The notes under the pieces: generated by a model | Told to the model about the DNA's origin: nothing | Database searches by the model: none | Seen by the model: the letters and a program-made list of their open reading frames with translations, nothing else | Shown here: positions 10,869 through 24,803 of the stretch, piece after piece | How the letters are laid out: each line of letters begins with the position of its first letter | Position numbering within the stretch: position 1 is the first letter of the stretch | Made by a program: the position numbers and the translations under genes | Assembly (NCBI GenBank): GCA_017429525.1 | Contig: JAFROT010000017.1 | Coordinates: forward strand, 62,001 to 126,000 | DNA: 64,000 nucleotides | Reading direction: 5' to 3' | Origin: Bacteroidaceae bacterium | GTDB lineage: Bacteria; Bacteroidota; Bacteroidia; Bacteroidales; Bacteroidaceae

Positions 10869-10906
10869 TGTCCATTTCTGGACATCAGTGTGTCCATAAT
10901 CGGACA
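10869..10906 (+). promoter_or_regulatory. Tandem enhancer-like dyads upstream of tolC
   Basis: Two inverted repeats of the form TGTCC-N6-GGACA lie at 10869-10884 and 10891-10906; the second extends to GTGTCC-N6-GGACAC at 10890-10907. Their centres are 22 bp apart (two helical turns). The proximal centre is 51.5 bp from the first base of the sigma-54 promoter at 10950. The same arrangement is repeated exactly at 16935-17030, so these are probably binding sites of the NtrC-type regulator encoded at 13950. Confidence 0.8.
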
Positions 10907-10949
10907 CTCCGTTCAGACGCGTTTGCTGATTATGAACGAGTTATGGAAC

Positions 10950-10964
10950 TGGCACTCTTTTTGC
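10950..10964 (+). promoter_or_regulatory. Sigma-54 (-24/-12) promoter of tolC-hlyD
   Basis: TGGCAC-TCTTT-TTGC is a full match to the sigma-54 consensus TGGCAC-N5-TTGC. The predicted transcription start is near 10976, leaving only about 4 nt before the ATG at 10980. An upstream octamer GAGTTATG at 10938-10945 recurs at the same offset before the other sigma-54 promoter. Confidence 0.85.
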
Positions 10965-10979
10965 GAATACAAAGGTGTC

Positions 10980-12530
10980 ATGATTAAGCATTGTTTATTC
11001 CCTATTTTCCTCTCGATGTGTGGCTGTTCGTCCACTTCGGCAGCCCTTTCGGCTACATCATTACAAGCCAATTCTTTGCCGGCTACGAGATCCGCAAAGT
11101 CCGACTCCGTTTTGCATCTTACGCTCTCAGAGTGCATTCTCATGGCGCGTCGTCAGAGTGTGGACGCTGCAGTAGCCCTTGGTGAGTTGAAATCAGCCTA
11201 CTGGCAATGGCGCAGCTATCGTGCAGATCTCTTACCAGAGGTGTCGTTCTCGGCCACCACGCCAAGCTATAACAAACGTTACACCAGCTATCAGCAGGCT
11301 GACGGCGGTCTCTCCTTCGTTCGCAACGACTACATTGGTCTGAGCGGTTCGCTCTATGTGACACAGAAGATATGGCCCACAGGCGGAACGCTCTCCGTTG
11401 AATCCTCCCTTGAATTCCTGCATCAGTCGGTCAATGCCCCGACTGTTGGCGGGCGTAACGGTACGAATCAGCTGATGTCTCTTCCAGTAGCTGTAACGCT
11501 CTCACAACCGCTATTCGGCGTCAACCATGTCAAATGGAACAGACGAATAGAGCCTCTTCGTTATCGCGAGGCTAAGGCTCGTTTCCTAACAGAAACAGAG
11601 CAAGTTGCTATGCAAGCCATCAACCACTACTTCAACCTCTTGTTGGCAGGCGAGCAAGTAGGTATTGCCGAGCAGAACCTACAGACAGCTGAGAAACTCT
11701 ATGAGGTGGCGCTAGCCAAGCGTGAGATGGGCGCCATCAGCGAGAACGACGTCTTGCAGATGCGACTCAACATGCTCTCCGCCCGTAGCACCCTGACTGA
11801 TGCCAGGAGCGCTCATCAAGCACAACAATTTGCCCTGCGCTCGTTTCTTGATGTCGAGACAGATATCGAACCTGAGGTGCCTGATGAATTGCCAGACCTC
11901 CACATAACCTATGAGGAAGTGCTGTCTCATGCCTTGAACAACAATGCTTTCGCTACAACCATGCGACGCCGCCAGTTGGAGGCCGACTATTCAGTGGCTT
12001 CTGCCCGTGCTGCCCGACAGAGCATCAATCTCTACGCACAAGTGGGCTACACGGGAACTGGCAATAGCGTGGGCGGTGCCTATCGCGACCTGCTGAGCAA
12101 GGAGGTGGTGCAAGTAGGGTTCTCGGTGCCTCTGCTGGATTGGGGCAAACGCAAGGGGCAACGCCGCATGGCCGAAAGCAACCGTGAGATCGTTCAGGGG
12201 CAGCTGCGCCAGCAGGCACAGGAGTTCCGACAGAACATCTTCGTCTTGACAGAACAGTTCAATAACCAGGCGCAGCAGCTGCACATCGCCTGCGAAGCTG
12301 ACACCATCGCCCAGCGGCGTTACCACACGAATGTCGAGACGTTCAAGATTGGAAGCATCTCTACGCTCGAACTCTCCGACGCCCAGACGGCAAAGGATGA
12401 AGCTCGCCGCAGTCGGATCCGGCAGCTCTTCAACTACTGGTACTACTACTACCAACTCCGCAGTATTACCCTTTGGGATTTTGAGCGGAAAGAGAACATC
12501 AATGTAGATTTCGAGAAAATAATAAAATAA
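10980..12530 (+). CDS. TolC-family outer membrane efflux protein
   Basis: The start at 10980 (MIKHCLFPIFLSMCGCSS) gives a signal peptide, perhaps a lipoprotein signal with Cys at residue 14 or 16, and it follows the sigma-54 promoter. A longer frame from 10863 would run through the enhancer sites and promoter and is rejected. The 516-residue product shows the repeated outer membrane factor halves with long amphipathic helices (MQAINHYFNLLLAGEQVGIAEQ; ISENDVLQMRLNMLSARS) and ends with WDFERKENIN. It should form the trimeric outer membrane channel of a tripartite exporter with the HlyD protein that starts 4 nt after its stop and with the ABC permeases encoded further on. Confidence 0.92.
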   Translation: MIKHCLFPIFLSMCGCSSTSAALSATSLQANSLPATRSAKSDSVLHLTLSECILMARRQSVDAAVALGELKSAYWQWRSYRADLLPEVSFSATTPSYNKRYTSYQQADGGLSFVRNDYIGLSGSLYVTQKIWPTGGTLSVESSLEFLHQSVNAPTVGGRNGTNQLMSLPVAVTLSQPLFGVNHVKWNRRIEPLRYREAKARFLTETEQVAMQAINHYFNLLLAGEQVGIAEQNLQTAEKLYEVALAKREMGAISENDVLQMRLNMLSARSTLTDARSAHQAQQFALRSFLDVETDIEPEVPDELPDLHITYEEVLSHALNNNAFATTMRRRQLEADYSVASARAARQSINLYAQVGYTGTGNSVGGAYRDLLSKEVVQVGFSVPLLDWGKRKGQRRMAESNREIVQGQLRQQAQEFRQNIFVLTEQFNNQAQQLHIACEADTIAQRRYHTNVETFKIGSISTLELSDAQTAKDEARRSRIRQLFNYWYYYYQLRSITLWDFERKENINVDFEKIIK

Positions 12531-12534
12531 GAAG

Positions 12535-13812
12535 ATGATAGCAGATAATCAGACAATGGACAGACAGATACCTGTCAGCGTCCAGCGAAAGAGAAAATTG
12601 ATCCGTTCAGGGAAATGGTTGTGCGCCTTCCTTGTGGTGATGGGCGTCGGTGCCTGGTTGGGCTCGCAAATGTTGACGACCATAGACCGCAAGACGTTGG
12701 TCGTCTCAGAGGTCGATCGCGGTACGATTGATGTGAGCGTCACGGCAACTGGACGCATCGTGCCCGCTTTCGAGGAAGTCATCACTTCGCCCATCAGCTC
12801 ACGTATATTGGAAGTCTATGCCCAAAGTGGCGACAGCGTGGACGTGGGCACTCCATTATTGCGACTGGACCTGCAATCGGCCGAGACGGAGTTGTCCAAG
12901 GCGTTGGACGAACGCGAGATACGTCATCATCAGATGGATCAGTTGCGGGCCAACATCGAGACACAACTCGCAGACCGACGCATGCAGATTGAGGTGGAAG
13001 AGATGAGACTCTCGCAGTTGGAAGCTCAACTGCGCAACGAACTCTATCTCGACAGCCTCGGCTCCGGCACTCGCGACCGTGTGCGTAGTGCCGAGACTAC
13101 CCTCCGCACCGCTCAACTGCAATTGGCACAGTTGCGTCAGCAATACGCAAACGAAGTGCGGGTGAAGCAGGCTGATCTACGCATGCAGCAGCTGCAAAAC
13201 GACATCTTCGAGAAAGGATTGAATGAGCAACAACGCACGCTGACCGATGCTGCCATCCGTTCGTCGCGCCGCGCCACGCTGACTTATATCACGACTGAAA
13301 TAGGCACCACCGTAGGGGCTGGGCAGAAGTTAGCCATCGTCAGCGACCTCAGTCATTTCAAGGCAGAGTGTGAGATATCAGACACCTATAGCGACCGCGT
13401 CCTCGTCGGTGGCGAGGCCCTACTGCGTATAGGCAAGGAACGTCTGCCCGCCACCATAGCCACAGTCACTCCCCTCAGTCAGGGCGGAGCCATTTCCTTC
13501 ACCGTGCAGCCACAGAATCCCAGTCATCCGCGCTTACGTTCAGGGTTGAAGGCAGAGGTTTACGTCATCACCAGCATTCGCGACGACGTCCTCCGCATAC
13601 GCAACGGCTCGTTCTATGCAGGGCCTGGCAAGTACACCTTATTTATATTTAAGGACGACCGCACCCTCGTGCCTCGTGAGGTACAGCTGGGCGAGTGCAA
13701 CTATGATTACATTGAAGTGCTCAGCGGCCTCTCTGAAGGCGAGGAACTCGTGGTCAGCGATATGACGAAATACAAAGGAAAGGAGAAGTTGAAAGTGAGA
13801 AGTGAGAAATGA
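12535..13812 (+). CDS. HlyD/MacA-type periplasmic adaptor
   Basis: A 425-residue membrane fusion protein. It has one N-terminal membrane helix (about residues 28-47, LCAFLVVMGVGAWLGSQM), a lipoyl-like half-motif (TATGRIVPAFEEVITSPIS), a long coiled-coil hairpin (about 110-240, rich in Glu/Gln/Arg/Leu), the second lipoyl half (GTTVGAGQKLAIVSDL) and a beta-barrel domain (FTVQPQNPSHPRLRSGLKAEVY). It would connect the inner-membrane permeases to TolC across the periplasm. The gene starts 4 nt after the tolC stop; an alternative start is the ATG at 12556. It shares the sigma-54 promoter at 10950. Confidence 0.92.
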   Translation: MIADNQTMDRQIPVSVQRKRKLIRSGKWLCAFLVVMGVGAWLGSQMLTTIDRKTLVVSEVDRGTIDVSVTATGRIVPAFEEVITSPISSRILEVYAQSGDSVDVGTPLLRLDLQSAETELSKALDEREIRHHQMDQLRANIETQLADRRMQIEVEEMRLSQLEAQLRNELYLDSLGSGTRDRVRSAETTLRTAQLQLAQLRQQYANEVRVKQADLRMQQLQNDIFEKGLNEQQRTLTDAAIRSSRRATLTYITTEIGTTVGAGQKLAIVSDLSHFKAECEISDTYSDRVLVGGEALLRIGKERLPATIATVTPLSQGGAISFTVQPQNPSHPRLRSGLKAEVYVITSIRDDVLRIRNGSFYAGPGKYTLFIFKDDRTLVPREVQLGECNYDYIEVLSGLSEGEELVVSDMTKYKGKEKLKVRSEK

Positions 13813-13850
13813 AAAGTGAAAAAATGTCGGACGAGGCGTTAAAGTAGATA

Positions 13851-13932
13851 AAATCGTTAATCGTTAATCGTCGAATCCGTAATTTTTTACTACCTTTGCC
13901 CTCGCAACAAAGAATAAATCGTTAATCGTTAA
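13851..13932 (+). repeat. Pair of 17-bp direct repeats around a promoter
   Basis: The 17-mer AAATCGTTAATCGTTAA occurs at 13851-13867 and again at 13916-13932, 65 bp apart, flanking the -7 box at 13891-13898. Each copy contains a further internal TCGTTAA repeat. They could be operator sites or chance AT-rich repeats. Confidence 0.6.
13891..13898 (+). promoter_or_regulatory. Housekeeping -7 box of the regulator-kinase operon
   Basis: TACCTTTG matches TAnnTTTG and lies about 50 nt before the regulator start. No clear TTTG is seen 19-22 nt upstream. It implies that the regulator and kinase are made by the vegetative polymerase and not by sigma-54. Confidence 0.65.
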
Positions 13933-13949
13933 ATCATAAATCATTATAG

Positions 13950-15335
13950 ATGCTTCTCATTGTTGATGACGATAGCACCATCCGTCTTTCGCTGAAGCTC
14001 ATCCTGGAGCGCAACGAATACACCGTTGTGCTGGCCGAGACGCCCAAAGCGGCCGTCTCCATTGTTCGTGACCATCCTGAAGTGGAGTTAGTACTGATGG
14101 ATATGAACTACGACTACTCCACGACAGGCGATGAGGGCCTGACACTACTCAGGCAGATCAAGTTGTTCCGCCCTAACCTACCCTGTATTCTCATGACGGC
14201 ATGGGGAACCATCGACCTGGCGGTCCAGGGAATGCGTGCCGGAGCATTCGACTTCATCACCAAGCCCTGGAATAATGGCGTGCTTCTGGATAGGATTGAG
14301 ACGGCGATAAAGTTGGGAGCGGCGCCCGCTTCGACCCCCGAAGAGGACACAATACCCTTAAAAACAAACGCCAGAGGTAAAGGAGTTCCCTCGGGAGGCA
14401 GTTCCTATGCTATCCTACCCTCCCTCTCTTCCATCTACGCCACCATCTCACGCATCGCTCCGACCAATGCCACCGTCCTCATCACAGGCGAAAGCGGAAC
14501 GGGCAAGGAACTCATTGCCGAGGCAATCCACCGACAGAGCTGTCGCGCGGCAGGTCCTTTCGTAAAGGTGAACCTTGGCGGCATCTCCACGTCACTCTTC
14601 GAGAGCGAGATGTTCGGTCACAAGAAAGGTTCTTTCACCGATGCCAAAGAAGACCGCATAGGCAGATTTGAGCTTGCAAAAGGGGGCACGATCTTCCTCG
14701 ATGAGATAGGAGAGCTGGACCTCGCCAGCCAGGTGAAGCTGCTGCGTGTGCTGCAGGATCAGACCTACGAAATACTGGGCGACAGCAAAACCCGACACAC
14801 AGATGTCCGTGTGGTCTGTGCCACTAATGCCGACCTTCAGACGATGGTAGAGGAACACACCTTCCGCGAGGACCTTTACTACCGCATCAACCTCATCCAT
14901 CTGCACCTACCGCCTTTGCGCGAGCGGCCAGAGGACATCCCTCTGCTCGTCGACCATTTCCTATGCCATTCCCGTTCGTTAAGCGGCAATTCTAGAGCCA
15001 AGACCATCACTCCCGATGCCATACGCTTCCTCCAATCTCTGCCCTTCCCTGGCAACATCCGCGAACTGAAGAATCTGGTCGAGAGGACGGTGCTGATGAC
15101 GGAGAAAGACGAGATCACAGCTGACGACTTCGCCCTTTCCCCCTCGCCTTCGTCTCCTGATTCCGCCTGGACGGCGGTCTCTTCGACGGGGAGTGCCCCT
15201 ACACTTGAGGAACTCGAGCGCTCTGCCATAGCGGCCTCTATCCAGAAGCATGCCGGCAACCTCTCCCTCGTAGCCAAAGAACTTGGTATCAGCCGCGGTG
15301 CTCTCTATCGAAAAATTGAGAAGCACGGACTCTAA
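13950..15335 (+). CDS. NtrC-family sigma-54-dependent response regulator
   Basis: The 461-residue protein has three domains in order. A receiver domain spans residues 1 to about 122, with the acidic pocket DDD at 6-8 and the phospho-acceptor Asp51 in LVLMDMNY. A sigma-54 activator AAA+ domain (about 148-385) has Walker A GESGTGKE, Walker [10 protein letters not shown] and R-finger region [12 protein letters not shown]-terminal Fis-type helix-turn-helix follows (about 420-461, [20 protein letters not shown]). The loop that contacts sigma-54, normally GAFTGA, reads GSFTDA here. The gene lies between two sigma-54 promoters with shared enhancer dyads, which it very likely controls. Confidence 0.95.
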
Positions 15336-15358
15336 TCCTCACTCTTCACAATCCTCAC

Positions 15359-16684
15359 TTGAAGCTCCTTCACTACTATCTCATCCTCGTGCTGTTCATC
15401 CTGCTGCTGGTAGGGGCAACGCTTTATGCCACGTTTGGCAGCCATTCCGTGCTATTCTACGGAACCGAGGTGTTCCTTGTCGTTTTGGTCTTCTATCTTT
15501 GGTTCTTCTACCAGAAGACGATACGTCCCTACGACACTCTTATCGGTGGAATGGAGCTGGTGCGCGACCTCGATCTCACCACTCGACTTGCTTCGTCCGG
15601 ACAGTATGAGACTGATGTCATCGTACGCACTTTCAACGACTTGCTTACCCGTCTGCGCAGCGAGCACCTCAGCCTCGAAGAACAATACAACTTTCTTAGC
15701 CTGCTCATCGAAGCATCACCGATGGGGGTCATTCAGTGTGACCTCAACGGAAACACGACCTCTATGAATCCTGCAGCCCGTCAGATGATGACGCCCGTCA
15801 TCTCTGAGGCCATGCAACGCCTGCCCATCGGCAGCGAGACAACTGTACGTCTCTCCACGGAGCCCGGAATCTATCGCATCAGCCATCTCTCCTTCCTCGA
15901 CCGCGGCTATCAGCACCCTTTCTACCTCATTGAATCCCTTACCTCCGAGGTGCGCCTGGCAGAGAAAGCAGCATACGAACGCGTCATCCGCATGATCGGT
16001 CACGAGGTCAACAATAGTGTTGCGGGAATCGTTAGCGCATTGGACAACGCTGCTCTACGCGACCGCTTGCTCGCCATGTCCGCATTCGTAACTCGTTTCG
16101 CAGAAGTCGTTAAGATTCCTTCGCCTAAACTCCAGCTTTGCGATCTCAGCGAGGAGGTCGAGGCCTGCCGTCCCTTCCTCGAGAATCTCTGCCTTGCTGC
16201 CAACGTCCGTCTCGACTTCCATCTCACCGACGAAGCTATCCCCGTACATCTCGACCCCATCCTCTTCCAGCAAGTGCTGGTGAATATCGTCAAGAACAGC
16301 GTAGAGAGTATAGGACCCAGCAGACCCACCCCCAACCCCTCCCGTAAGGGAGGGGAGTCCTCCGATTTGCTTCCTTTTTCTAATGCTAAGTCATCCGGCA
16401 TCATTACTATCACCGCGCAGCTTCTCCCCTCCCTGACGGGAGGGGTTGGGGGTGGGTCTTTATGTATCACCGACAACGGGCGCGGCATCTCCCCAGAAGC
16501 AGCTCAACATCTCTTCACCCCATTCTATTCTACCAAGCCCCAAGGTCAAGGCCTCGGACTCCTACTCATCCGTGACATCCTAACCGCTCATGGGTGCACC
16601 TTCACCTTGCAGACAGATCCCGACGACCAGCTAACCCGATTCACCATCCAGTTCCCTCCTGCAGCTATTAAAGTAGAATCTTAG
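15359..16684 (+). CDS. Sensor histidine kinase, partner of the sigma-54 regulator
   Basis: The frame opens with a TTG at 15359, 23 nt after the regulator stop; no ATG or GTG is available before the first membrane segment, so TTG is the best start. The 441-residue protein has two membrane helices (about 4-25 and 32-52) with only a few residues between them and hence no periplasmic sensor domain. A HAMP-like and a PAS-like segment follow, then the phospho-acceptor box RMIGHEVNNS (about residue 218), the N box VNIVKNSVES, the G1 box ITDNGRGIS and FTPFYSTKPQGQGLGL. Between the N and G1 boxes two inverted copies of a palindromic repeat are translated in frame (about 322-333 and 356-367). Confidence 0.92.
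   Translation: MKLLHYYLILVLFILLLVGATLYATFGSHSVLFYGTEVFLVVLVFYLWFFYQKTIRPYDTLIGGMELVRDLDLTTRLASSGQYETDVIVRTFNDLLTRLRSEHLSLEEQYNFLSLLIEASPMGVIQCDLNGNTTSMNPAARQMMTPVISEAMQRLPIGSETTVRLSTEPGIYRISHLSFLDRGYQHPFYLIESLTSEVRLAEKAAYERVIRMIGHEVNNSVAGIVSALDNAALRDRLLAMSAFVTRFAEVVKIPSPKLQLCDLSEEVEACRPFLENLCLAANVRLDFHLTDEAIPVHLDPILFQQVLVNIVKNSVESIGPSRPTPNPSRKGGESSDLLPFSNAKSSGIITITAQLLPSLTGGVGGGSLCITDNGRGISPEAAQHLFTPFYSTKPQGQGLGLLLIRDILTAHGCTFTLQTDPDDQLTRFTIQFPPAAIKVES
16322..16459 (+). repeat. Inverted pair of GC-rich palindromic repeats inside the kinase gene
   Basis: The 36-bp copy at 16322-16357 is nearly the exact reverse complement of the copy at 16424-16459. Each copy itself contains a hairpin built on CTCCC and GGGAG arms. 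They are read in frame as PTPNPSRKGGE and [12 protein letters not shown]. The same element recurs many times in the ABC genes downstream. Confidence 0.9.
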
Positions 16685-16750
16685 TTCCCTGCAGTCGCTA
16701 TTTAAGTTGAATCTTAGTCTCCTTTAGCCGCTATTCAGGTCGGCTTCTCC
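16652..16750 (+). repeat. 33-bp tandem repeat at the end of the kinase gene
   Basis: Two 33-bp units at 16652-16684 and 16685-16717 share most bases (TTCCCT near the start, GAATCTTAG at the end), with a degenerate third unit to about 16750. The first unit encodes the last kinase residues and its stop codon, so a duplication pushed copies into the spacer. Confidence 0.7.
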
Positions 16751-16791
16751 CCCGTTTTACCTTAATTCGTTTCACATCATGGTAGGCGAAC

Positions 16792-16914
16792 GCTTACACA
16801 TATATTCGCTCAGGCTTACACATATATTCGCTCAGGCTTACACGTATAGACGCTCAGGCTTACACCTATATTCGCTCAGGCTTACACCTATATTCGCTCA
16901 GGCTTACTCGTATA
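16792..16914 (+). repeat. 22-bp tandem array, five units plus a partial sixth
   Basis: Five consecutive 22-bp units (16792-16813, 16814-16835, 16836-16857, 16858-16879, 16880-16901) and a partial sixth each contain GCTTACAC, then an AT-rich core close to ATATATTCGC, then CTCAG. A second array with the same period and core lies at 45691-45820. There are no spacers, so it is not a CRISPR. The array occupies the kinase-permease spacer just upstream of the enhancer dyads. Confidence 0.9.
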
Positions 16915-16934
16915 AATGTTTACTTTTGTGTAGT

Positions 16935-16972
16935 TGTCCACTTCCGAACAACCGAGTGTCCATAAATGGACA
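16935..16972 (+). promoter_or_regulatory. Tandem enhancer-like dyads upstream of the permease operon
   Basis: TGTCC-N6-GAACA at 16935-16950 (one mismatch) and TGTCC-N6-GGACA at 16957-16972. The centres are 22 bp apart and the proximal one is 51.5 bp from the sigma-54 promoter at 17016, exactly as before tolC. Confidence 0.8.
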
Positions 16973-17015
16973 GTTGATTCACATGGTTATATTCAATATC
17001 AATGAGTTATGCGTT

Positions 17016-17030
17016 TGGCACGGAAATTGC
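17016..17030 (+). promoter_or_regulatory. Sigma-54 (-24/-12) promoter of the permease operon
   Basis: TGGCAC-GGAAA-TTGC followed by A is a full consensus match. The predicted start is near 17042, leaving a leader of about 34 nt before the first permease at 17076. The octamer GAGTTATG at 17004-17011 is placed as at the tolC promoter. Confidence 0.88.
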
Positions 17031-17075: not shown

Positions 17076-18428
17076 ATGAAAGTGTTTATGTACATCCGCC
17101 AAGCTCTGGCCATGATGCGCGAGGAGAAACTCTTTTCCGGTATCTACATCGCAGGAACTACGATGGCGTTAGCCTTCACGATGGTGATGGCGGTGGTCTA
17201 TTACATCAAGCTCGCTCCCATCTACCCCGAGGTGAACCGCGCACGAACGGTCTATTTCGAAGGCATTTACATCGAGGCCGAGAACGGCGGGATGGGAAAG
17301 ATAGGCTTTAGCCCGAAGGCGTTCGAGGAGTGGTTCGCAGCCAGCCCGAACATCGAGTACTGTGCCCCCACGCTGCTCGCCGCTGGCACGGGAAAGTCTG
17401 AAAGCCGCAGCCACGAATATGCTAAGTTCGACAATGAGTACTTCGACGTCGTCAGGAATTGGACCAACGCCGACTTCTTCAAGATCTACGAGTACGACTT
17501 CGTGAGCGGACGGCCCTTCACGAAACAAGAAGTGGATGGGCATGAGTCAGTCTGTGTCATCTCCGATGCGCTGGCTGAGCGGCTGTTCGGCAAGGGCGTG
17601 GACGCCGTGGGGCAAATGGTCGGCGTGGAAAACTTCAACGAGGCGCGTGTGGTGGGCGTGGTGCGCAGCGGCAGTCAGCTCACGCCCGACAGCTATGCCG
17701 ATTTCATCGTACCCTATAACCTCGTGGATTTCTGTGGCGGCTCGCCTTACCAAGGCATATTCTCCATCGTGGCTACCGTGAAAGACAACGAGCACTTACA
17801 AGCGCTGAAGACTGAACTCGATGGAGTGGCGGCACGTATTCAGCAAGCGAATCCCGACATCTGCTCGAATTTCGGTTTCGGCGAAGGAGTGAAAATGAAG
17901 ATGGTACTGACAAGGAATATGGCGACGCACCCGATGCACGTGCTGCGCGCAGAGAACCGCGATGGCGAGTTCGAGGTGCCTTCGGGTTGGCTGCTCTTTC
18001 GGCACTACGCGGGCATCCTCTTCGTGTTGCTCTTCGTGCCGGCGTTGAACCTCTGCGGCATTGTGGCGGGACGCATGGAGCGACGGTCGGCAGAGATGGC
18101 TGTGCGCAAGACCTTCGGAGCATGTCGCAGCACGCTCTTACATCAGGTGGTGTGGGAGAATCTGGTGATGACAACCATCGGAGGCATCATCGGACTTGTA
18201 CTCGCTTGGCTGGCCATCTATGGTTTCCGCCGTGAAATTCTCGGTATGTTCTTCGATAACAGCACCCTCAGCTCAGCACCCCTCGTCTCGGGTGAGATGC
18301 TCTTTGCTCCCGCACTCTTCCTCGGCGCCTTTGCAGCCATTCTCCTCCTCAACCTCCTCGCCGCCGTCGTGCCTGCGTGGTGGTGCTTGCGTAAACCTAT
18401 TGTCCAATCAATGATGGAAAAACAATGA
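17076..18428 (+). CDS. FtsX/MacB-type ABC permease, A-type subunit 1
   Basis: A 450-residue permease without its own ATPase. The topology is that of MacB: a first helix near residues 21-45 (FSGIYIAGTTMALAFTMVM), a large periplasmic domain of about 250 residues, then three helices at roughly 305-330, 360-390 and 410-435, with the coupling segment MERRSAEMAVRKTFGACRST between the second and third. The family uses cytoplasmic ATP hydrolysis to drive periplasmic shape changes. Its stop overlaps the next gene by 4 nt (ATGA), and the two together correspond to one A/B pair. It is the first gene after the sigma-54 promoter at 17016. Confidence 0.9.
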   Translation: MKVFMYIRQALAMMREEKLFSGIYIAGTTMALAFTMVMAVVYYIKLAPIYPEVNRARTVYFEGIYIEAENGGMGKIGFSPKAFEEWFAASPNIEYCAPTLLAAGTGKSESRSHEYAKFDNEYFDVVRNWTNADFFKIYEYDFVSGRPFTKQEVDGHESVCVISDALAERLFGKGVDAVGQMVGVENFNEARVVGVVRSGSQLTPDSYADFIVPYNLVDFCGGSPYQGIFSIVATVKDNEHLQALKTELDGVAARIQQANPDICSNFGFGEGVKMKMVLTRNMATHPMHVLRAENRDGEFEVPSGWLLFRHYAGILFVLLFVPALNLCGIVAGRMERRSAEMAVRKTFGACRSTLLHQVVWENLVMTTIGGIIGLVLAWLAIYGFRREILGMFFDNSTLSSAPLVSGEMLFAPALFLGAFAAILLLNLLAAVVPAWWCLRKPIVQSMMEKQ

Positions 18429-19726
18429 ATATGAAACTAAATATTCTCAATGCCAACGGTTGGCTATTTATCGAGCTCGTCATCATTACCGTCGTTGCCT
18501 GGGTGGTCTTCGACCCTGCCGTCGTCAACCTCTACTATCGCAGTCTGCCCCTTGGCTACGACACCAACCGCCTGCTCTATGGCGAATGTACCGTGAGCCC
18601 ATCAGAGGAGGCATCGGAAGAGGAGATGAGCGATCCGTACAACATTACCGAGGAACGGCGGCAGCAGATGACGCGCCAGCTCACGACCGTGGAGGGCGTG
18701 GAATCAGCCTATCTCTACGACCAGGACCTTTGGTCTATCGGTCATACCAACGAGACTTATTCCCCATGTCGCCACGAGGCCGATACGCTTTATATGGGCT
18801 GGCTCGCCTTCATCCCCGACTCCCACTTCTTCGAGACCTACGGCCTGCAGCCCCTGCCTGGCAGCCCGTCGGCCGAGGAACTCTCGTGCATCAAAAGGTC
18901 GGAGCAGAAGGTGGTGCTGACACGTACCAGTGCCATGGCGCTGTTTGGCTCCGCAGATGTGGTGGGGCGTCGCCTCACGTTCTGCTACAACCCAGAGCTT
19001 GAGGTGACGGTGGCAGGCGTGGTGGAGGACATCCGCAAGTCGTTGGGCTACAACATGCGTTCGCTCATCTTCCAGCCCGAGAACCTGACCACCACCCGCT
19101 GCCGCTTCGTCATCCGTCTGAAGCAGGGCGTGGACGCCCGACGCTTCGTGGAGGAGCACGGCCGCGACCTCATCCGCAACGCACGCACCAACTACACCCG
19201 TGTCAGCAGCCTCATGACCTACGACGACCACCTGCAGCAATTGGAGCTCGACGACGGCCGCATACAGGAGGTAAACCGCAGTCTGGCCCTCGCCCTCTTC
19301 TTCCTCGTCAACCTCTGCCTGGCCGTCATCGGCACCGTGTGGTTTCACGCCAAGCGCCGCACAGAGGAGTGTGGCGTCCGCCGCGCCTTCGGAGCTACGA
19401 AACTGCGTCTGCTCTGCGAGATGTTACTGCGCAACGCCGCCCTCGCAACCGCCGCTGTTGCCGTCGGGCTCGTCATTTACCTGAACTACGCCCACAGCGG
19501 TTACTCCACCCTCGAGAACGGCTTCACCTACAACGAAAAGCTCTATGTTCCGCGACTCGTCGACATCCCCTCGGACATGACCTGGCCCGACCACTTCTGG
19601 CCCCACTTCCTCATCGTCTCCGCGTGCGTGTACCTTATTATATTAGTCACCGTCCTCATCGGAACCGCAATACCCGCATGGAGGATTACGCGGACACACA
19701 TTACGGAGGCGTTGAGGGAAGAGTAG
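18425..19726 (+). CDS. FtsX/MacB-type ABC permease, B-type subunit 1
   Basis: The start overlaps the A1 stop by 4 nt. The 433-residue protein has the same four-helix layout, but its first helix is of the B type (GWLFIELVIITVVAWVVF, about 12-30), followed by a LPLGYDTNRLL motif shared with the second half of the next gene. The coupling segment is RRTEECGVRRAFGATKLRLL, and the end reads IPAWRITRTHITEALREE. It should form a heterodimer with A1, served by the LolD-type ATPase at 22415. The spacer to the next gene is 37 nt. Confidence 0.9.
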   Translation: MNMKLNILNANGWLFIELVIITVVAWVVFDPAVVNLYYRSLPLGYDTNRLLYGECTVSPSEEASEEEMSDPYNITEERRQQMTRQLTTVEGVESAYLYDQDLWSIGHTNETYSPCRHEADTLYMGWLAFIPDSHFFETYGLQPLPGSPSAEELSCIKRSEQKVVLTRTSAMALFGSADVVGRRLTFCYNPELEVTVAGVVEDIRKSLGYNMRSLIFQPENLTTTRCRFVIRLKQGVDARRFVEEHGRDLIRNARTNYTRVSSLMTYDDHLQQLELDDGRIQEVNRSLALALFFLVNLCLAVIGTVWFHAKRRTEECGVRRAFGATKLRLLCEMLLRNAALATAAVAVGLVIYLNYAHSGYSTLENGFTYNEKLYVPRLVDIPSDMTWPDHFWPHFLIVSACVYLIILVTVLIGTAIPAWRITRTHITEALREE

Positions 19727-19763: not shown

Positions 19764-22328
19764 ATGTCGAAGATTGTAATGTATTTGCGTCAGGCTCTCG
19801 CCACGATGCGCGAGGAACCGCTTTATTCCGCCATGTACATCGCGGGTACGGCGCTGGCTATCGCTTTCACAATGATTATTGCTGAAATCTACTATGTGAA
19901 GGTGGCGGATATCGCGCCGGAGGTGAACAGAAGCAAGACTTACTATATGGAATACATGGGCAGGAAGAACGAATCCGATAAGGTGGAAGCCATACGGCCA
20001 GATGTGTTCCACGACTTGTTTCAGACGATGCAGACGCCTACGTGCATTACCGCATTGATGAATTTTTGGGGCGCCAATGAGTTCTATATGAAGTTGGCCG
20101 ATGGCCTGCACGACCGCCAAGTGAACGTAAAGCTGACGGAACCGGGCTTCTTCCGTTTCTTCCAGTTTCACTTCCTTCAAGGCGCTCCGTTCACGCAGGA
20201 CGACTTCGATGCCCATCGTCCTGTGGTCGTGGTGACGGAGGAGGTGGCGAAGGATGCAAATGTAGCCGTGGGTCAAACCATCATCGTCAACCATCGTCCC
20301 TATCGCATCGTTGGCGTGGTACAGACGCCGAGCGTGCTGACAGAAGAATGTGTGGCTGATGTGTGGATTCCTTATACAGCCGAAGGCATTTTAGAAGACT
20401 GGAATGCTGATTTCCATGAGATTCCGTTAAAGGTAAGCTTTGTGGTTCCGTACGGTCAACGCGATGCTTTCATGCAAGAACTGAAGGAAGTGGAATCACG
20501 CTACAACGCCGTGCATGGCGACAGACCTGTGGATATGCATGCCGAACTCAAATCGCATTACGCCGCCGTCTGGCAAGACCTCGGCTCGGTGTTCAGTGCA
20601 TGGGGTTCTAACCTGACGTGGTACGTTGCTCCTGCCATCTTGCTCCTGTTGCTGGTGCCTGCGCTGAACCTCAGCGGAATGGTGGCAGCACGTATGCAAC
20701 GCCGCCTGCCGGAGATGGCGGTGCGCAAAGCCTTTGGTGCCAAGCGGCGCACGCTGCTCTGGCAGGTCATACGTGAGAACCTGACGCTGACACTTATCGG
20801 AGGGCTCCTGGGACTTTGTTTCGCTTGGTTAGCACTCTACGCCTGGCGCGACTGGGTGTTCTACATATTCTCTGGAATCTATGGCCAGTCGCCCGTTGTG
20901 CCTATTCTTCGCGGCGAGATGTTCCTTGCCCCTGCCATCTTCCTCATTGCCCTCGTTATCTGCTGTACGTTGAATGTATTGGCAGCAACTTTGCCTGCGT
21001 GGCTCAGCCTGCGTAAGCCGATTGTGGAAGGCATGATGAATGAAGAGCAGGGCGAGGGTGGGGGATGGCGCTCGAAGATATGGATAGCTGCAGAACTCAT
21101 CCTCGTCACCTTCGTCCTCTGGTGGACCTTAGACCCCGTACTCGTCACCTCCTACGTCACGCACCTTCCCCTTGGCTACGACCCTGACCGCCTTGTGAAG
21201 TTGGAAGTGGCAAGTTCCGTGACGCGACAAGAGCAGCATAAAGACTTGTACAAATCCATGCAGGAGGCGGAGGTGCTGCTGCAGAAGGCGCAGGAGATGG
21301 ATGGCGTGGAGATGGCCTATACGGCACACGGCACTCCGATGGGCTTTGGCGTGGTGGTGCCAGGTCGCAGCTATTTCCTCGACGGCGACACCATCACGGG
21401 TTGGAACTGGGATTTCAGCCCCGACTCCCGGATGTTTGAAGTCTATGGTTTCCAATCGCTGACGCCCAGTGTACCCACCAACGAACTCACCCACGATTGC
21501 GTAGATGGCGAGACCGTTATCATCACTCGTTCCGCCGCCATGGGGCTTTTCGGCACTATCGATGTGGCAGGCAGGAAGATAGGAGGAACGAAGTTTGGTT
21601 ACAAGGAAGAGACAGGAAATGTAGGATGGATAGAAACGGAATACCGGATCCGTGCCGTGGTGGAAGATATGCGCTACAGCAGCTACGACCGCGACTTCTC
21701 CTGTGTCTTTGAATGTGACAACGGCTATCTCCCGAACGCACCCATCATCCTGCGGCTGCGCGAGGGCGTGGATGCAGAGCAGTTCATCCAGAGTCATCAG
21801 CGGCAGATGGAGACAGACCTGACAATGGAACATTGCTTCGTGCGCCGTATGCAGTCGAGCCGGGAAGCCACGGCAGAAAGAGATCGACGAACGGGGCCAG
21901 ACCGTCGCGTCCGTCGAAACTCACTCATTGCCGCCTTCTTCGCTTCGAACCTGGCTTTCGGCGTCTTCGGCACCCTATTGATGTACACGCGGCAGCGTCG
22001 CGAGGAGGCCGGCATCCGTCGTGCCTTCGGCGCCACGAAGTGGAGCGTCTTTCTCGGCTTCCTGCGCGAGGCGTGGCTGCTCACCACCGTCAGCGTCGTC
22101 ATCGGCTGCATCATCTACTTCCAGTTCGCCGCTGCGCGTGGCCTCGGCGACGACTACGGCACTCATAACCCCGCCGTCCATTTCTGGTTCGACAGCTTCG
22201 GCACCCACTTCCTCGTCGTCTCCGCGTGCGTGTACCTTATTATATTAGGCACCGTACTCGTCGGAACGGCCATCCCGGCGTGGAGGATTAGCAGGACGAG
22301 GATAACGGAGGCGATAAAGGAAGAGTAG
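19764..22328 (+). CDS. Fused A-B FtsX/MacB-type ABC permease, pair 2
   Basis: The 854-residue protein is an A-type permease (residues 1 to about 425, MSKIVMYLRQALATMREEPLY, ending LRKPIVEGMMNEEQ) joined in one frame to a B-type permease (about 432-854, WIAAELILVTFVLWW, LPLGYDPDRLV, ending ISRTRITEAIKEE). It is the single-chain counterpart of the split pairs at 17076/18425 and 23301/24910. Eight membrane helices are expected. No frameshift or internal stop is seen, and the join is a short Gly/Glu-rich linker (EEQGEGGGWRS). It should act as a complete transmembrane unit with the ATPase encoded next. Confidence 0.9.
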   Translation: MSKIVMYLRQALATMREEPLYSAMYIAGTALAIAFTMIIAEIYYVKVADIAPEVNRSKTYYMEYMGRKNESDKVEAIRPDVFHDLFQTMQTPTCITALMNFWGANEFYMKLADGLHDRQVNVKLTEPGFFRFFQFHFLQGAPFTQDDFDAHRPVVVVTEEVAKDANVAVGQTIIVNHRPYRIVGVVQTPSVLTEECVADVWIPYTAEGILEDWNADFHEIPLKVSFVVPYGQRDAFMQELKEVESRYNAVHGDRPVDMHAELKSHYAAVWQDLGSVFSAWGSNLTWYVAPAILLLLLVPALNLSGMVAARMQRRLPEMAVRKAFGAKRRTLLWQVIRENLTLTLIGGLLGLCFAWLALYAWRDWVFYIFSGIYGQSPVVPILRGEMFLAPAIFLIALVICCTLNVLAATLPAWLSLRKPIVEGMMNEEQGEGGGWRSKIWIAAELILVTFVLWWTLDPVLVTSYVTHLPLGYDPDRLVKLEVASSVTRQEQHKDLYKSMQEAEVLLQKAQEMDGVEMAYTAHGTPMGFGVVVPGRSYFLDGDTITGWNWDFSPDSRMFEVYGFQSLTPSVPTNELTHDCVDGETVIITRSAAMGLFGTIDVAGRKIGGTKFGYKEETGNVGWIETEYRIRAVVEDMRYSSYDRDFSCVFECDNGYLPNAPIILRLREGVDAEQFIQSHQRQMETDLTMEHCFVRRMQSSREATAERDRRTGPDRRVRRNSLIAAFFASNLAFGVFGTLLMYTRQRREEAGIRRAFGATKWSVFLGFLREAWLLTTVSVVIGCIIYFQFAAARGLGDDYGTHNPAVHFWFDSFGTHFLVVSACVYLIILGTVLVGTAIPAWRISRTRITEAIKEE

Positions 22329-22330
22329 AG

Positions 22331-22537
22331 GACCCTCCCCCCAGCCCCTCCCTTGTAGGGAGGGGAGTAATTACCTTCAAGAAATGAATATATTAACAAC
22401 AATAGAAAACAATTATGAGTACACAAGTTTTTCCAAACAACCAAACGAGTCAAGTAACCCAAAATGAGCAAAGCACTTTAACCAATCAAATGGTATCTAC
22501 TCCCCTCCCTACAAGGGAGGGGCAGGGAGGAGGGTCT
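22331..22537 (+). repeat. Palindromic repeat pair flanking the start of the ABC ATPase
   Basis: One copy at 22331-22366 lies in the untranslated spacer; a second, inverted copy at 22499-22537 lies inside the N-terminal codons of the ATPase and reads [15 protein letters not shown]. The arms CCCCTCCCT and AGGGAGGGG are the same family as inside the kinase gene. Confidence 0.85.
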
Positions 22538-23206
22538 TCCATTAAGCTCACTGAAATCAACAAAATCTACCGCACCGACGAAGTGGAGACACAGGCGTTG
22601 GAGAACGTGAACATCGAAGTGCAGAAGGGTGAGTTCCTGAGCATTATGGGACCTTCGGGCTGCGGCAAATCGACCCTGCTGAACATCATGGGACTCCTGG
22701 ACGAACCCACCAGCGGACAGATAGAGCTGTGCGGACAGCGCATCGACCCACACATGAGCGACAACCGTCTGGCCGAAATCCGCAACCGCACGCTGGGCTT
22801 CGTCTTCCAGTCGTTCCACCTCATCCCGACGCTGAACGTCCTGGACAACGTGATGCTGCCCCTCATCTATCGGGGCGTAGGCCGCAGCGAGCGCACGCGG
22901 CTGGCCAAGGAGGTCATTGCCCGCGTAGGCCTCTCGCATCGCATGAAGCACCGCCCAACGCAGCTCTCTGGCGGACAATGCCAGCGCGTAGCCATCGCCC
23001 GCGCCATCATCGGCAACCCCGAAATCCTCCTCGCCGACGAGCCCACAGGTAACCTCGACTCGAAGATGGGTGCCGAAATCATGGAGCTGCTGCATAAGCT
23101 GAATAAGGAGGACGGCCGCACCATCGTCATGGTGACGCACAACGAGAAGCAGGCTGCGCAGACGGACCGCATCATCAAGTTCTTGGATGGTCGGCAGATT
23201 TCATAG
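22415..23206 (+). CDS. LolD/MacB-type ABC transporter ATPase
   Basis: The 263-residue protein has Walker [10 protein letters not shown] (about residue 74), Q-loop [12 protein letters not shown], signature [10 protein letters not shown], Walker [13 protein letters not shown] and H-loop VTHNE, as in the LolD/MacB class that energises FtsX-like permeases. It is the only ATPase in the locus and would have to serve all three permease pairs. The first 45 residues ([16 protein letters not shown] and a repeat-coded [14 protein letters not shown]) precede the usual family start at [11 protein letters not shown], so a repeat insertion has lengthened the N-terminus; an internal start is possible but none is obvious. 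Confidence 0.95.
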
Positions 23207-23221
23207 AGAAGACCCCCTCCC

Positions 23222-23444
23222 CGAAAGACCCACCCCCAACCCCTCCCGTGAGGGAGGGGAGAATAGTTACCTTTCAAGAATAGTTTATAACCCAATAATA
23301 ATGGAAATGTCTACAACGAATAATAAAGGAAGTAACCCAACATCGCGCCAGCCACTCCCCTCCCTGACGGGAGGGGTCGGGGGTGGGTCTGTTTCATCGC
23401 GCCAGCCACTCCCCTCCCTGACGGGAGGGGTCGGGGGTGGGTCT
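23222..23444 (+). repeat. Palindromic repeats around the start of permease A3
   Basis: A forward copy at 23226-23261 sits in the spacer, and two inverted copies at 23355-23390 and 23409-23444 are translated in tandem as [13 protein letters not shown] near the N-terminus of the permease. The stretch 23222-23353 is also a near-perfect duplicate of 24831-24962. Confidence 0.9.
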
Positions 23445-24803
23445 GCTGGGTCTGCTGGGGCTGCTGTGGCCTTCCTCTCCCACGCCTTCTCCCTTATCCG
23501 CGAGGACAAGCTCTTCTCCGCCATCTACATCGCAGGCACGGCGGTGGCCATAGCGTCCGCCATGGTCGTAGCCATCATGCTAAACATCAAGATGGCGAAC
23601 ATCTACCCAGAGACGCACCGCGACCGCACGCTGTATGTCACCGCCTTGCAATACAAGGACAACGAAGTGGGCGGTCCGATGTACACGGGCTGCAGCACCC
23701 TCGCCGTGGATGAATTGTTCAGCAAACTGGAGAGTGTGGAGGTGGCAACGGGGCTCTTTAGAAATAACTATGAGTTCTTCCGGATGGATTCGGTTCCGTT
23801 GGCTCCTCTTCCGCTGGAAGGAAATCTGCGTGCCTTGTACTGCGATCCCCGTTTCTTCCAATTCTATGACTTCCAGTTCCTCGAGGGTCGCCCTTTCAAC
23901 GAACAAGAGTTCCGCAACGGGGAGCCTGTGTGTGTGGTGACGGATAAGTTCTTGGAGAAGGCAGGGATAACCCATCCCAATCCCCAACAGCCCACCCCCG
24001 TGCCCACCCTTTACATCAACTCCATCCCCTACCGCATCATCGGCATCGTCAAGAGTGCCAGCCCAATGATGGACGCCTCCTACGCCGAGTTCTATGCCCC
24101 TTACCTTGGCAAGGAGGTAAGCCATACTGAGGCTAAGCCTACCAGCTATAAAGGTAACCTCAGCGTGCGCTTGCTGCTGAAGAATGGTTACACGCGCAAT
24201 GATTTCATGAAAGAGGCGGAACCGTTGTGCCGACGCTACGAGGCAGCGCAGAGTTCTGCCGAAGGCGAGCCCGTACACTTCACGGTGGATGCTAAGTCGC
24301 ATTTTTTTGTGTGCTTCAGCTTCTTCCGCTCCGATGACGAGTCCACGACCGACAAGGCCAAAAACCTGATGCCACCTGCTATCTTGATGCTTATCTTCCT
24401 GCTGCTGCCTGCCCTGAATCTCAGCGGTCTCGTTAGCAACCGCATGGAAGCGCGGCGGGCAGAGATGGGAATCCGCAAGGCCTTCGGCGCCAAGCGGCGC
24501 ACGCTGCTGCGCGAGGTCATTCGCGAAAACCTCGTCCTGACGTGCTGCGGCGGACTTGTAGGTTGGGTGCTATCATGGCTGTTCTACCTGGCCATCCGTC
24601 ACACGGCCATGTTCCAGGCGCTCATCCTCCACGAAGGCAATCTCACAGGCGAAATCACGTTGAATCTCAAGATGTTCGTAACGCCCACCCTCTTTCTCAT
24701 CGTCTTCCTCTGCTGTGTCGTCCTCAACCTCATGGTCGCCCTCATACCGTCATGGACCTCACTACGCAAACCTATTGTCGAATCGCTAAATCAGAAGAAG
24801 TAA
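23301..24803 (+). CDS. FtsX/MacB-type ABC permease, A-type subunit 3
   Basis: The start at 23301 ([13 protein letters not shown]) is chosen because the next permease gene begins with the same sequence after the same leader. The longer frame from 23187 overlaps the ATPase gene. The 500-residue protein begins with about 55 non-family residues, including two copies of [13 protein letters not shown], before the A-type core ([23 protein letters not shown]). The large periplasmic domain and the remaining three helices match A1 and A2, with coupling segment [20 protein letters not shown]. It pairs with the B-type gene at 24910. The N-terminal repeats should lie in the cytoplasm. Confidence 0.88.

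Follow-up and report, generated by a model that had tools for sequence, protein, structure and literature searches.

What regulates the exporter genes of a 64,000-nt stretch of DNA from a Bacteroidaceae bacterium (contig JAFROT010000017.1, positions 62,001 to 126,000; hereafter, the window), and through what DNA code? Two sigma-54 promoters in the window, each preceded by a pair of short inverted repeats (dyads), lie on either side of the genes for an NtrC-type activator and a histidine kinase. The original prediction was that this regulator binds the dyads as enhancers and switches on tolC-hlyD and a permease operon together, forming a self-contained regulon. Sequence comparisons partly support it: the core of the reading stands, whereas "self-contained" does not. 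The locus very probably encodes a two-component, sigma-54-dependent exporter regulon with paired dyads, a bent spacer and a thioredoxin-like co-target. The regulator is thereby paired with a likely DNA code and with target genes, in a phylum for which a 2025 survey, as far as its available text goes, predicts promoters and gives no enhancer code (PMC12316311).

Two window promoters share one geometry

In this analysis, a dyad is TGTCC-N6-GGACA, a sigma-54 site is TGGCAC-N5-TTGC, and distances run from the centre of the proximal dyad to the T of TGGCAC. The elements of the two promoters are as follows.

10869..10884, + strand: distal enhancer dyad of the tolC promoter, TGTCCATTTCTGGACA (exact motif match, geometry)
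10891..10906, + strand: proximal enhancer dyad of the tolC promoter, TGTCCATAATCGGACA (exact motif match, geometry)
10950..10964, + strand: sigma-54 (-24/-12) promoter on the tolC side, TGGCACTCTTTTTGC (exact motif match)
16935..16950, + strand: distal enhancer dyad of the permease promoter, TGTCCACTTCCGAACA (one base off)
16957..16972, + strand: proximal enhancer dyad of the permease promoter, TGTCCATAAATGGACA (exact motif match)
17016..17030, + strand: sigma-54 promoter on the permease side, TGGCACGGAAATTGC (exact motif match)

Paired dyads and sigma-54 sites were found where they had been predicted, including the one-base deviation in the distal dyad at 16935. At both promoters, 22 bp separate the two dyad centres, and the proximal one is 51.5 bp away from the T of TGGCAC, which confirms the spacing originally claimed. 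The window holds two exact TGGCAC-N5-TTGC sites (10950 and 17016) and no others. Both carry the GG at -24 and the GC at -12 of sigma-54 promoters, with ten bases between them, and this GG/GC element is also conserved among relatives. One sigma-54 gene is present in the genome (PF04552, C26:88101).

Paired dyads exceed chance and extend beyond the window

Single dyads are in mild excess: with at most one mismatch, the window contains 6 against 2.44 expected, and 4 of 100 shuffles contain as many as 6. It is the paired, phased arrangement, not the single dyad, that is far above chance. Controls run on the organism's own genome (3.3 Mb, with a completeness of 86%), on 139 genus genomes and on 393 order genomes led to the rejection of chance as the source of the pairs. 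In its own genome, TGTYC-N6-GRACA occurs twice at 22 bp without mismatch at four places; besides the two window promoters, these are C40:35951 and C40:41934. One more pair has a single mismatch. The reversed control gave one place at up to three mismatches.

The copy at C40:41934, on another contig, has TGGCAC at the identical distance of 51.5 bp and lies 5' of a thioredoxin-like gene. As one additional promoter, if not more, is thus built in this way outside the window, the regulon is not self-contained.

Two other pairs were viewed separately. An ECF-sigma-like gene (Sigma70_r2 and r4; L036, 3382-3963) lies 3' of the outlying pair at C40:35951, and a second layer of regulation through this gene is possible. 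The pair at C45:8284 (L035, 8284-8321; one mismatch) was set aside as a further promoter. A larger inverted repeat near a contig end surrounds it (by eye), no sigma-54 site was seen within the stretch read, and the pair looks like a different element.

Conservation of the arrangement among relatives

The kinase was used to collect related loci, and the best 80 of 89 loci encoding a relative were scanned. Most are titled as uncultured Prevotella, Prevotellaceae, Bacteroidaceae or Bacteroidales, and ruminant stomachs are the source of many. A first scan with a fixed 6-bp spacer found dyad pairs in 13 of these 80 loci; a looser one (21-23 bp, any palindrome) returned 38 places in 23 loci, at least one of them plainly due to chance (L053). 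Many kinase loci without a pair are short contigs or have a different gene order. Sigma-54 sites inspected in 15 kinase-scan loci outside the dyad set included none that was convincing. In the distant relatives L123, L124 (Pontibacter) and L126, which have both activator and kinase, TGTYC pairs accompanied by a sigma-54 site were looked for and not found.

Together with 42 genome loci and 4 loci of the organism itself, the kinase loci form a set of 126, which yielded 64 distinct candidate promoters. Three of these, with two mismatches in the sigma-54 site, were dropped and 61 were kept. The dyad-promoter distance is 51.5 bp in 41, 50.5 bp in 12, 52.5 bp in 7 and 64.5 bp in 1; that is, 60 of 61 promoters have a standard distance of 50.5-52.5 bp, with 21-24 bp between dyads. 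These counts are conditional, because the sigma-54 site was sought only at 48-67 bp. A fairer test is provided by 30 loci picked by their dyads alone, in which the site was sought about 23-88 bp away. TGGCAY-N5-TTGY (at most one mismatch) lies at 50.5-52.5 bp in 28 of them, and the geometry claimed for the window does recur in the genome and its relatives. The two misses are an order relative (L129), whose site is on the opposite strand at 71.5 bp, and L153, with its dyad at the end of the locus.

This placement bears on whether the dyads mainly form an operator for repression, or serve another DNA-binding family, with sigma-54 control being incidental. Paired dyads can have other uses, as a TGTGC pair at C2:64491 without a sigma-54 site in range indicates. 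However, the distance at which the dyad-picked loci hold their sigma-54 promoter is a usual one for activation, and a primarily repressive or unrelated role is very unlikely.

By blastp against the window proteins, the first frame 3' of the 61 promoters is a permease in 32 cases, TolC in 16, the ATPase in 6 and HlyD in 1; the remaining 6 correspond to no protein of this set. Four of these six first frames have a signal-peptide-like start (by eye), one is ECF-sigma-like (C40:35951) and one lies at a locus end. Among the four, two are thioredoxin-like by Pfam (L164 above the cut-off, the organism's own copy below it) and the other two are cut short. The thioredoxin match (cut-off 27 bits) scores 45.8 in L164 and 22.7 and 25.3, both below the cut-off, in the organism's own copies. 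L130 and L134 gave no thioredoxin match in Pfam, both frames being cut by the locus end; a full gene of the L130 type, in L157, contains WGTWCGPC.

The likeness of the two window promoters might also be explained by ancestry, if they were copies of a duplicated cassette and not under shared control. They lie 6 kb apart, and both are 5' of exporter genes, as a duplication would have it. Yet conservation is mostly low outside the dyads, a WATCAA box (described below) and the -24/-12 element, while these elements and their spacing persist in 61 promoters. A mere duplication is extremely improbable.

The dyads also co-occur with the kinase. The dyad pair, with a variable spacer, occurs in 29 of the 139 genus genomes (reversed control, 0), as does the kinase (E <=1e-50), and 22 genomes share both (Fisher p 7e-14, kinship ignored). 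Co-occurrence with the kinase and the same geometry before tolC, hlyD, permease and ATPase genes support the dyads as enhancers of a sigma-54 system, a part of the original prediction that survives the loss of "self-contained". Most relatives add a feature absent from that prediction: the distal and proximal dyads are near mirror images, with typical cores ATTTCC and a form of GGAAAT. When the distal core is reversed, 44 of 60 promoters have it matching the proximal core at 4-6 of 6 positions; in direct orientation, 4 of 60 reach this level.

A box matching the IHF consensus between enhancer and promoter

Each spacer holds a further element that the original account did not include, resembling the binding site of integration host factor (IHF).

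10931..10943, + strand: IHF-consensus-like box, TATGAACGAGTTA (8 of 9 positions, 19 nt before TGGCAC)
16997..17009, + strand: IHF-consensus box, TATCAATGAGTTA (9 of 9 positions, 19 nt before TGGCAC)

The box was scored on the promoter strand as WATCAA-N4-TTR (9 positions). The IHF consensus is quoted as WATCAANNNNTTR (PMC8942017), and a match to it between enhancer and promoter, as in IHF-assisted promoters, is present here. The best match occupies one and the same position, 19 nt before TGGC, in every one of the 60 promoters with standard spacing. It scores at least 8/9 in 49 of them and is perfect in 29, whereas 3.6% of shuffled spacers reach 8/9 anywhere and 0.13% do so at the 19-nt place. 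The copy at C40:41934 scores 9/9. IHF bends DNA lying between enhancer and promoter, and acts there in the psp and CbrB promoters (PMC3709507, PMC6296734). A bend at a fixed position fits the near-constant enhancer-promoter distance better than free looping does.

Four genes of the HU/IHF family (PF00216) are present in the genome, on C26, on C42 and, as a pair, on C5. IHF models outscore HU models for three of the four proteins, yet the scores are far below the IHF cut-off. Two of the genes adjoin each other in L171 (C5:175496-176064), one being fused to a long C-terminal extension, and both proteins score better with IHF-alpha than with HU models.

Alternatively, WATCAA-N4-TTR may be an upstream contact of the sigma-54 polymerase, or the site of another regulator, in which case the fixed spacing would stem from direct contacts and not from bending. 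Conservation does reach 5' of the IHF consensus (about CTSAT, positions 21-25), beyond what the consensus needs, and the box is very close to the -24 element; moreover, no protein of the genome exceeds the IHF cut-offs, and box matches are poor in 5 of 14 promoters of the paralogous system described below. In contrast, the conserved positions are those of WATCAANNNNTTR (PMC8942017), with the four middle bases poorly conserved. The box also occupies the location at which IHF acts in the psp and CbrB promoters (PMC3709507, PMC6296734), and three of the four HU/IHF-family proteins favour IHF models. A direct contact or another regulator is possible, if on balance doubtful. Under the favoured explanation, a fixed bend, an IHF consensus at one fixed place predicts a sequence-specific bending protein in these bacteria, with four candidates.

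The activator and its kinase

The two promoters enclose the following regulatory features.

13891..13898, + strand: TAnnTTTG (-7-type) box for the regulator genes, 59 bp 5' of the activator start codon
13950..15335, + strand: NtrC-type response regulator and sigma-54 activator (Pfam: receiver, AAA+, Fis-type helix-turn-helix)
15359..16684, + strand: histidine kinase (Pfam HATPase; PAS_8 match below the cut-off)

NtrC-type activators bind upstream sites and drive the sigma-54 polymerase through ATP hydrolysis. The window protein has the complete domain set of this class, with receiver, AAA+ sigma-54 domain and Fis-type helix-turn-helix all above the Pfam cut-offs, as well as Walker A, Walker B and arginine-finger motifs. 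Among activator rows of relatives, Walker A GESGTGKE is present in 64 of 64, Walker B IFLDEIG in 66 of 67 and FREDL[FY]YR in 62 of 67. The recognition helix, SRGALYRK, is invariant in the 64 of 64 orthologues whose match reached the C-terminus. The activator stays below the cut-off of each NCBIfam equivalog compared (score/cut-off in bits: NtrC, 368/558.6; NifA, 326/529; GlrR, 279/763; PspF, 250/444).

The regulator genes were said to have a TAnnTTTG box of their own, and one is present at 13891. Of 60 rows examined, among them the C2 paralogue and three distant loci, 39 have one or more TAnnTTTG boxes in the 150 bp 5' of the activator. A basal supply of the sensor can therefore exist before induction. 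A second TAnnTTTG box, at 16921, lies immediately 5' of the permease enhancer.

Hydropathy indicates two N-terminal hydrophobic segments in the kinase, with a short loop between them and no obvious periplasmic domain. In Bce-type systems, the kinase senses through permeases; by analogy, one might guess that the window kinase could do the same. Several genes, the kinase among them, appear to contain short G+C-rich repeats (PTPNPSRxGGE) as in-frame insertions (by eye); such elements, with repeated 14-mers, were noted in 15359-16684, 22415-24803 and L044.

Paired dyads in other families of the order

The dyad pair is present in 9 of 393 order genomes (the source genome and 8 others; control, 0). 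In six of the eight, it adjoins MacB/FtsX permease or HlyD genes, and in four of these six (L129, L185, L186 and L187), it lies between a MacB/FtsX permease and a receiver-AAA+-Fis activator, all above the Pfam cut-offs. On the permease side, three of the four loci have a weak sigma-54-like site at 71.5-73.5 bp, with 1-2 mismatches; the sole sigma-54-like site seen in the fourth is at 136.5 bp. The 71.5-73.5 bp of these order relatives is about two helical turns beyond the genus distance. The pair in G347 and G420, of one genus, belongs to an apparently unrelated tandem repeat (TGTCCCAAGTAGGACA-like) and was excluded as support.

A paralogous system with a second code

Sigma-54 activators number three clear cases in the genome, with three further weak hits. 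One of them, on contig C2, is adjoined by its own kinase, permeases and ATPase. A search of the genome for the IHF box together with a sigma-54 site found 12 places at up to three mismatches (control, 1), and five of the six best (at most two mismatches) are the two window promoters, C40:41934 and two C2 promoters. The C2 promoters lie 5' of another TolC-like gene and of an FtsX-type permease adjoining the C2 kinase (Pfam). Their dyads are TGTGC-N6-GCACA (one arm one base off in each), spaced 20 bp apart and 63.5 bp from the promoter.

This second code also recurs. A TGTGC pair (at most one mismatch) is found in 19 of the 139 genus genomes (control, 0). A sigma-54 site is in range at 14 of 21 TGTGC loci, at 62.5-65.5 bp in 13 of the 14 and at 73.5 bp in one; the other 7 of the 21 have no sigma-54 site in range. 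The IHF box scores at least 7 in 9 of the 14 promoters and 2-5 (poor) in 5. A perfect TGTGC pair is also found 5' of the C2 activator's own gene (L044, 5492-5527; C2:64491-64526), with no sigma-54 site in range, and autoregulation of this activator from a TAnnTTTG promoter is possible.

The two codes are accompanied by different recognition helices, namely, SRGALYRK in the window activator orthologues, TRGALYRR in four TGTCC activators of other families, and TRYALYRK in the C2 activator, with TGTGC. In the cases seen, one helix residue appears to track the dyad code, Gly with TGTCC and Tyr with TGTGC. The genome thus appears to contain two systems side by side, which differ in code and geometry and share one design. 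The paralogous system offers a natural experiment on the way in which an activator can alter its specificity and retain the promoter architecture.

With three clear activators in the genome, the window dyads might be read by a different one, such as C30, which lacks a receiver domain, while the neighbouring NtrC-type protein regulates something else. Against this assignment, dyads and kinase co-occur and are physically linked in relatives and in other families, the C2 paralogue is accompanied by dyads of another type, both at two promoters and 5' of the gene for its activator, and the recognition helix goes with the dyad type. A different reader of the window dyads is very unlikely.

Proposed mechanism

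The evidence is consistent with the following order of events. The kinase (15359-16684) presumably phosphorylates the NtrC-type activator (13950-15335), dimers of which would bind the two TGTCC-N6-GGACA-type dyads about 22 bp apart. The bound activator would reach over a short spacer, almost constant in length and probably bent at WATCAA-N4-TTR by an IHF/HU-type protein, to touch the sigma-54 polymerase at TGGCAC-N5-TTGC. With read-through of the operons, tolC-hlyD, the MacB/FtsX permease-ATPase operon and at least one thioredoxin-like gene elsewhere would be switched on. The signal may be envelope or antimicrobial stress.

Several observations weigh against this mechanism. The pair pattern is missing from 7 of the 29 genomes with the kinase (in three of the 7, the kinase is only 42-45% identical), and 7 genomes have the dyad pair without the kinase; many assemblies are incomplete. 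Among genus genomes that are at least 90% complete with low contamination, just 4 of 18 have the pair. Promoter counts are not independent, because the promoters are related by descent, and the genome counts come from related genomes throughout, many of them incomplete. The mirror-image match is weak in the four pairs of the genome itself (3, 3, 1 and 2 of 6 core positions). At C40:35951, the dyads are present but the sigma-54 site is at 64.5 bp and there is no IHF box (4/9). None of the four HU/IHF-family proteins exceeds the NCBIfam cut-offs for IHF.

The loop by which the activator should contact sigma-54 (residues 227-232) is a further such point. It reads GSFTDA, not GAFTGA, with the FT core kept, and GAFTGA mutants are mostly unable to activate transcription, according to the available part of a review (PMC7175178). 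In 64 aligned relatives, the loop is GSFTDA in 50 and GAFTDA in 14, while the third activator of the genome (C30, L045) carries GAFTGA. Four activators of other families beside TGTCC pairs have GAFTGA (one, L186), GAFTDA (two) and GSFTDA (one). Since three of these four activators share the variant, GSFTDA/GAFTDA seems natural in this activator group.

A broader proposal, for and against which the case is evenly balanced, is that Bacteroidales possess parallel two-component exporter systems. Each would have its own enhancer code and rigid geometry (TGTCC, about 22/51.5 bp; TGTGC, 20/about 63-65 bp), with paralogous activators in which Gly or Tyr tracks the code and a shared bend made by a Bacteroidota protein of IHF-like specificity. 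If so, sigma-54 enhancer action in the phylum would rest on a fixed bend and not on free looping, and the change from TGTCC to TGTGC could be traced at the protein level.

Exporter genes and neighbouring features

The predicted targets and a repeat beside them are as follows.

10980..12530, + strand: TolC-like outer-membrane efflux protein (Pfam OEP 6e-38)
12535..13812, + strand: HlyD/MacA-type periplasmic adaptor (Pfam HlyD_3, NCBIfam)
16792..16914, + strand: 5.6 tandem copies of a 22-bp repeat (GCTTACACATATATTCGCTCAG), just 5' of the permease enhancer
17076..18428, + strand: MacB/FtsX-type permease 1 (Pfam MacB_PCD and FtsX)
18425..19726, + strand: MacB/FtsX-type permease 2 (Pfam)
19764..22328, + strand: duplicated MacB/FtsX-type permease 3 (Pfam)
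22415..23206, + strand: ABC ATPase (best NCBIfam matches DarD/LolD, both below cut-offs)
23223..24803, + strand: MacB/FtsX-type permease 4, start uncertain (Pfam, relatives)

Genes for a TolC-like protein, an HlyD-like protein, the NtrC-type regulator and the histidine kinase follow the first promoter in this order. For TolC, the start codon adopted is the ATG at 10980, which is 30 nt 3' of the T of TGGCAC. The longest open reading frame, from 10863, runs through the enhancer, and automatic start calls may therefore swallow the sigma-54 promoter. A MacB-type tripartite set (MacB_PCD/FtsX permease, ABC ATPase, adaptor and TolC) is complete in the window. Unlike in MacB proper, ATPase and permeases are on separate chains, and the ATPase scores 228/966 bits (score/cut-off) against the MacB model. 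The tandem repeat at 16792-16914 has a period equal to the dyad spacing of 22 bp, and none was found among the loci collected from elsewhere.

Comparison with known systems

In the literature searched, neither the code of the enhancer nor the assignment of a regulator to it was seen, and the same holds for the IHF-consensus box of this group and for the second code of the paralogue. Searches on sigma-54 and exporters in Bacteroides or Bacteroidota and in rumen Prevotella found no description of the enhancer, nor was it described among the matches listed for IHF in Bacteroides. A related study predicts sigma-54 control of FtsX/COG0577 permeases in Bacteroidia, which its authors call the first evidence for such a link (PLoS One 2025, PMC12316311). 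It shares target class and sigma factor with the window system. However, it consists of promoter scores and a catalogue of activators; by its own account, the specificity of activators is not available for all the organisms covered, and the main text contains neither "IHF" nor "UAS" (upstream activating sequence) (PMC12316311).

Four characterized systems resemble the window promoters in part. PspF of E. coli has no receiver domain, and its dyad sequence differs from TGTCC-N6-GGACA. It is held by PspA, whereas the window system consists of a two-component pair and exporter genes. The pspA promoter is nonetheless similar, with two upstream activating sequences and IHF at a membrane-stress sigma-54 promoter (PMC3709507). 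QseF (GlrR) at glmY in enterobacteria is, like the window activator, a two-component NtrC-type regulator, with TGTC-N10-GACA sites, putative IHF sites and sigma-54 (PMC8745638). In the window, the half-sites are two bases closer (TGTC-N8-GACA), the dyads are two and not three, the distance is near-constant and the targets differ. The NifA upstream activating sequence, TGT-N10-ACA, has a consensus that TGTCC-N6-GGACA fits (PMC6296734). However, the window motif is narrower, paired and fixed in place, and the window activator has a receiver and is below the NifA cut-off. The PP2810 efflux operon of Pseudomonas putida, regulated by CbrB, combines an NtrC-type regulator, subsites, IHF, sigma-54 and an efflux pump (PMC6296734); it differs in its RND-type pump, in the relaxed recognition by CbrB and in belonging to another phylum. 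The promoter design itself is already known from the psp, glmY and CbrB promoters.

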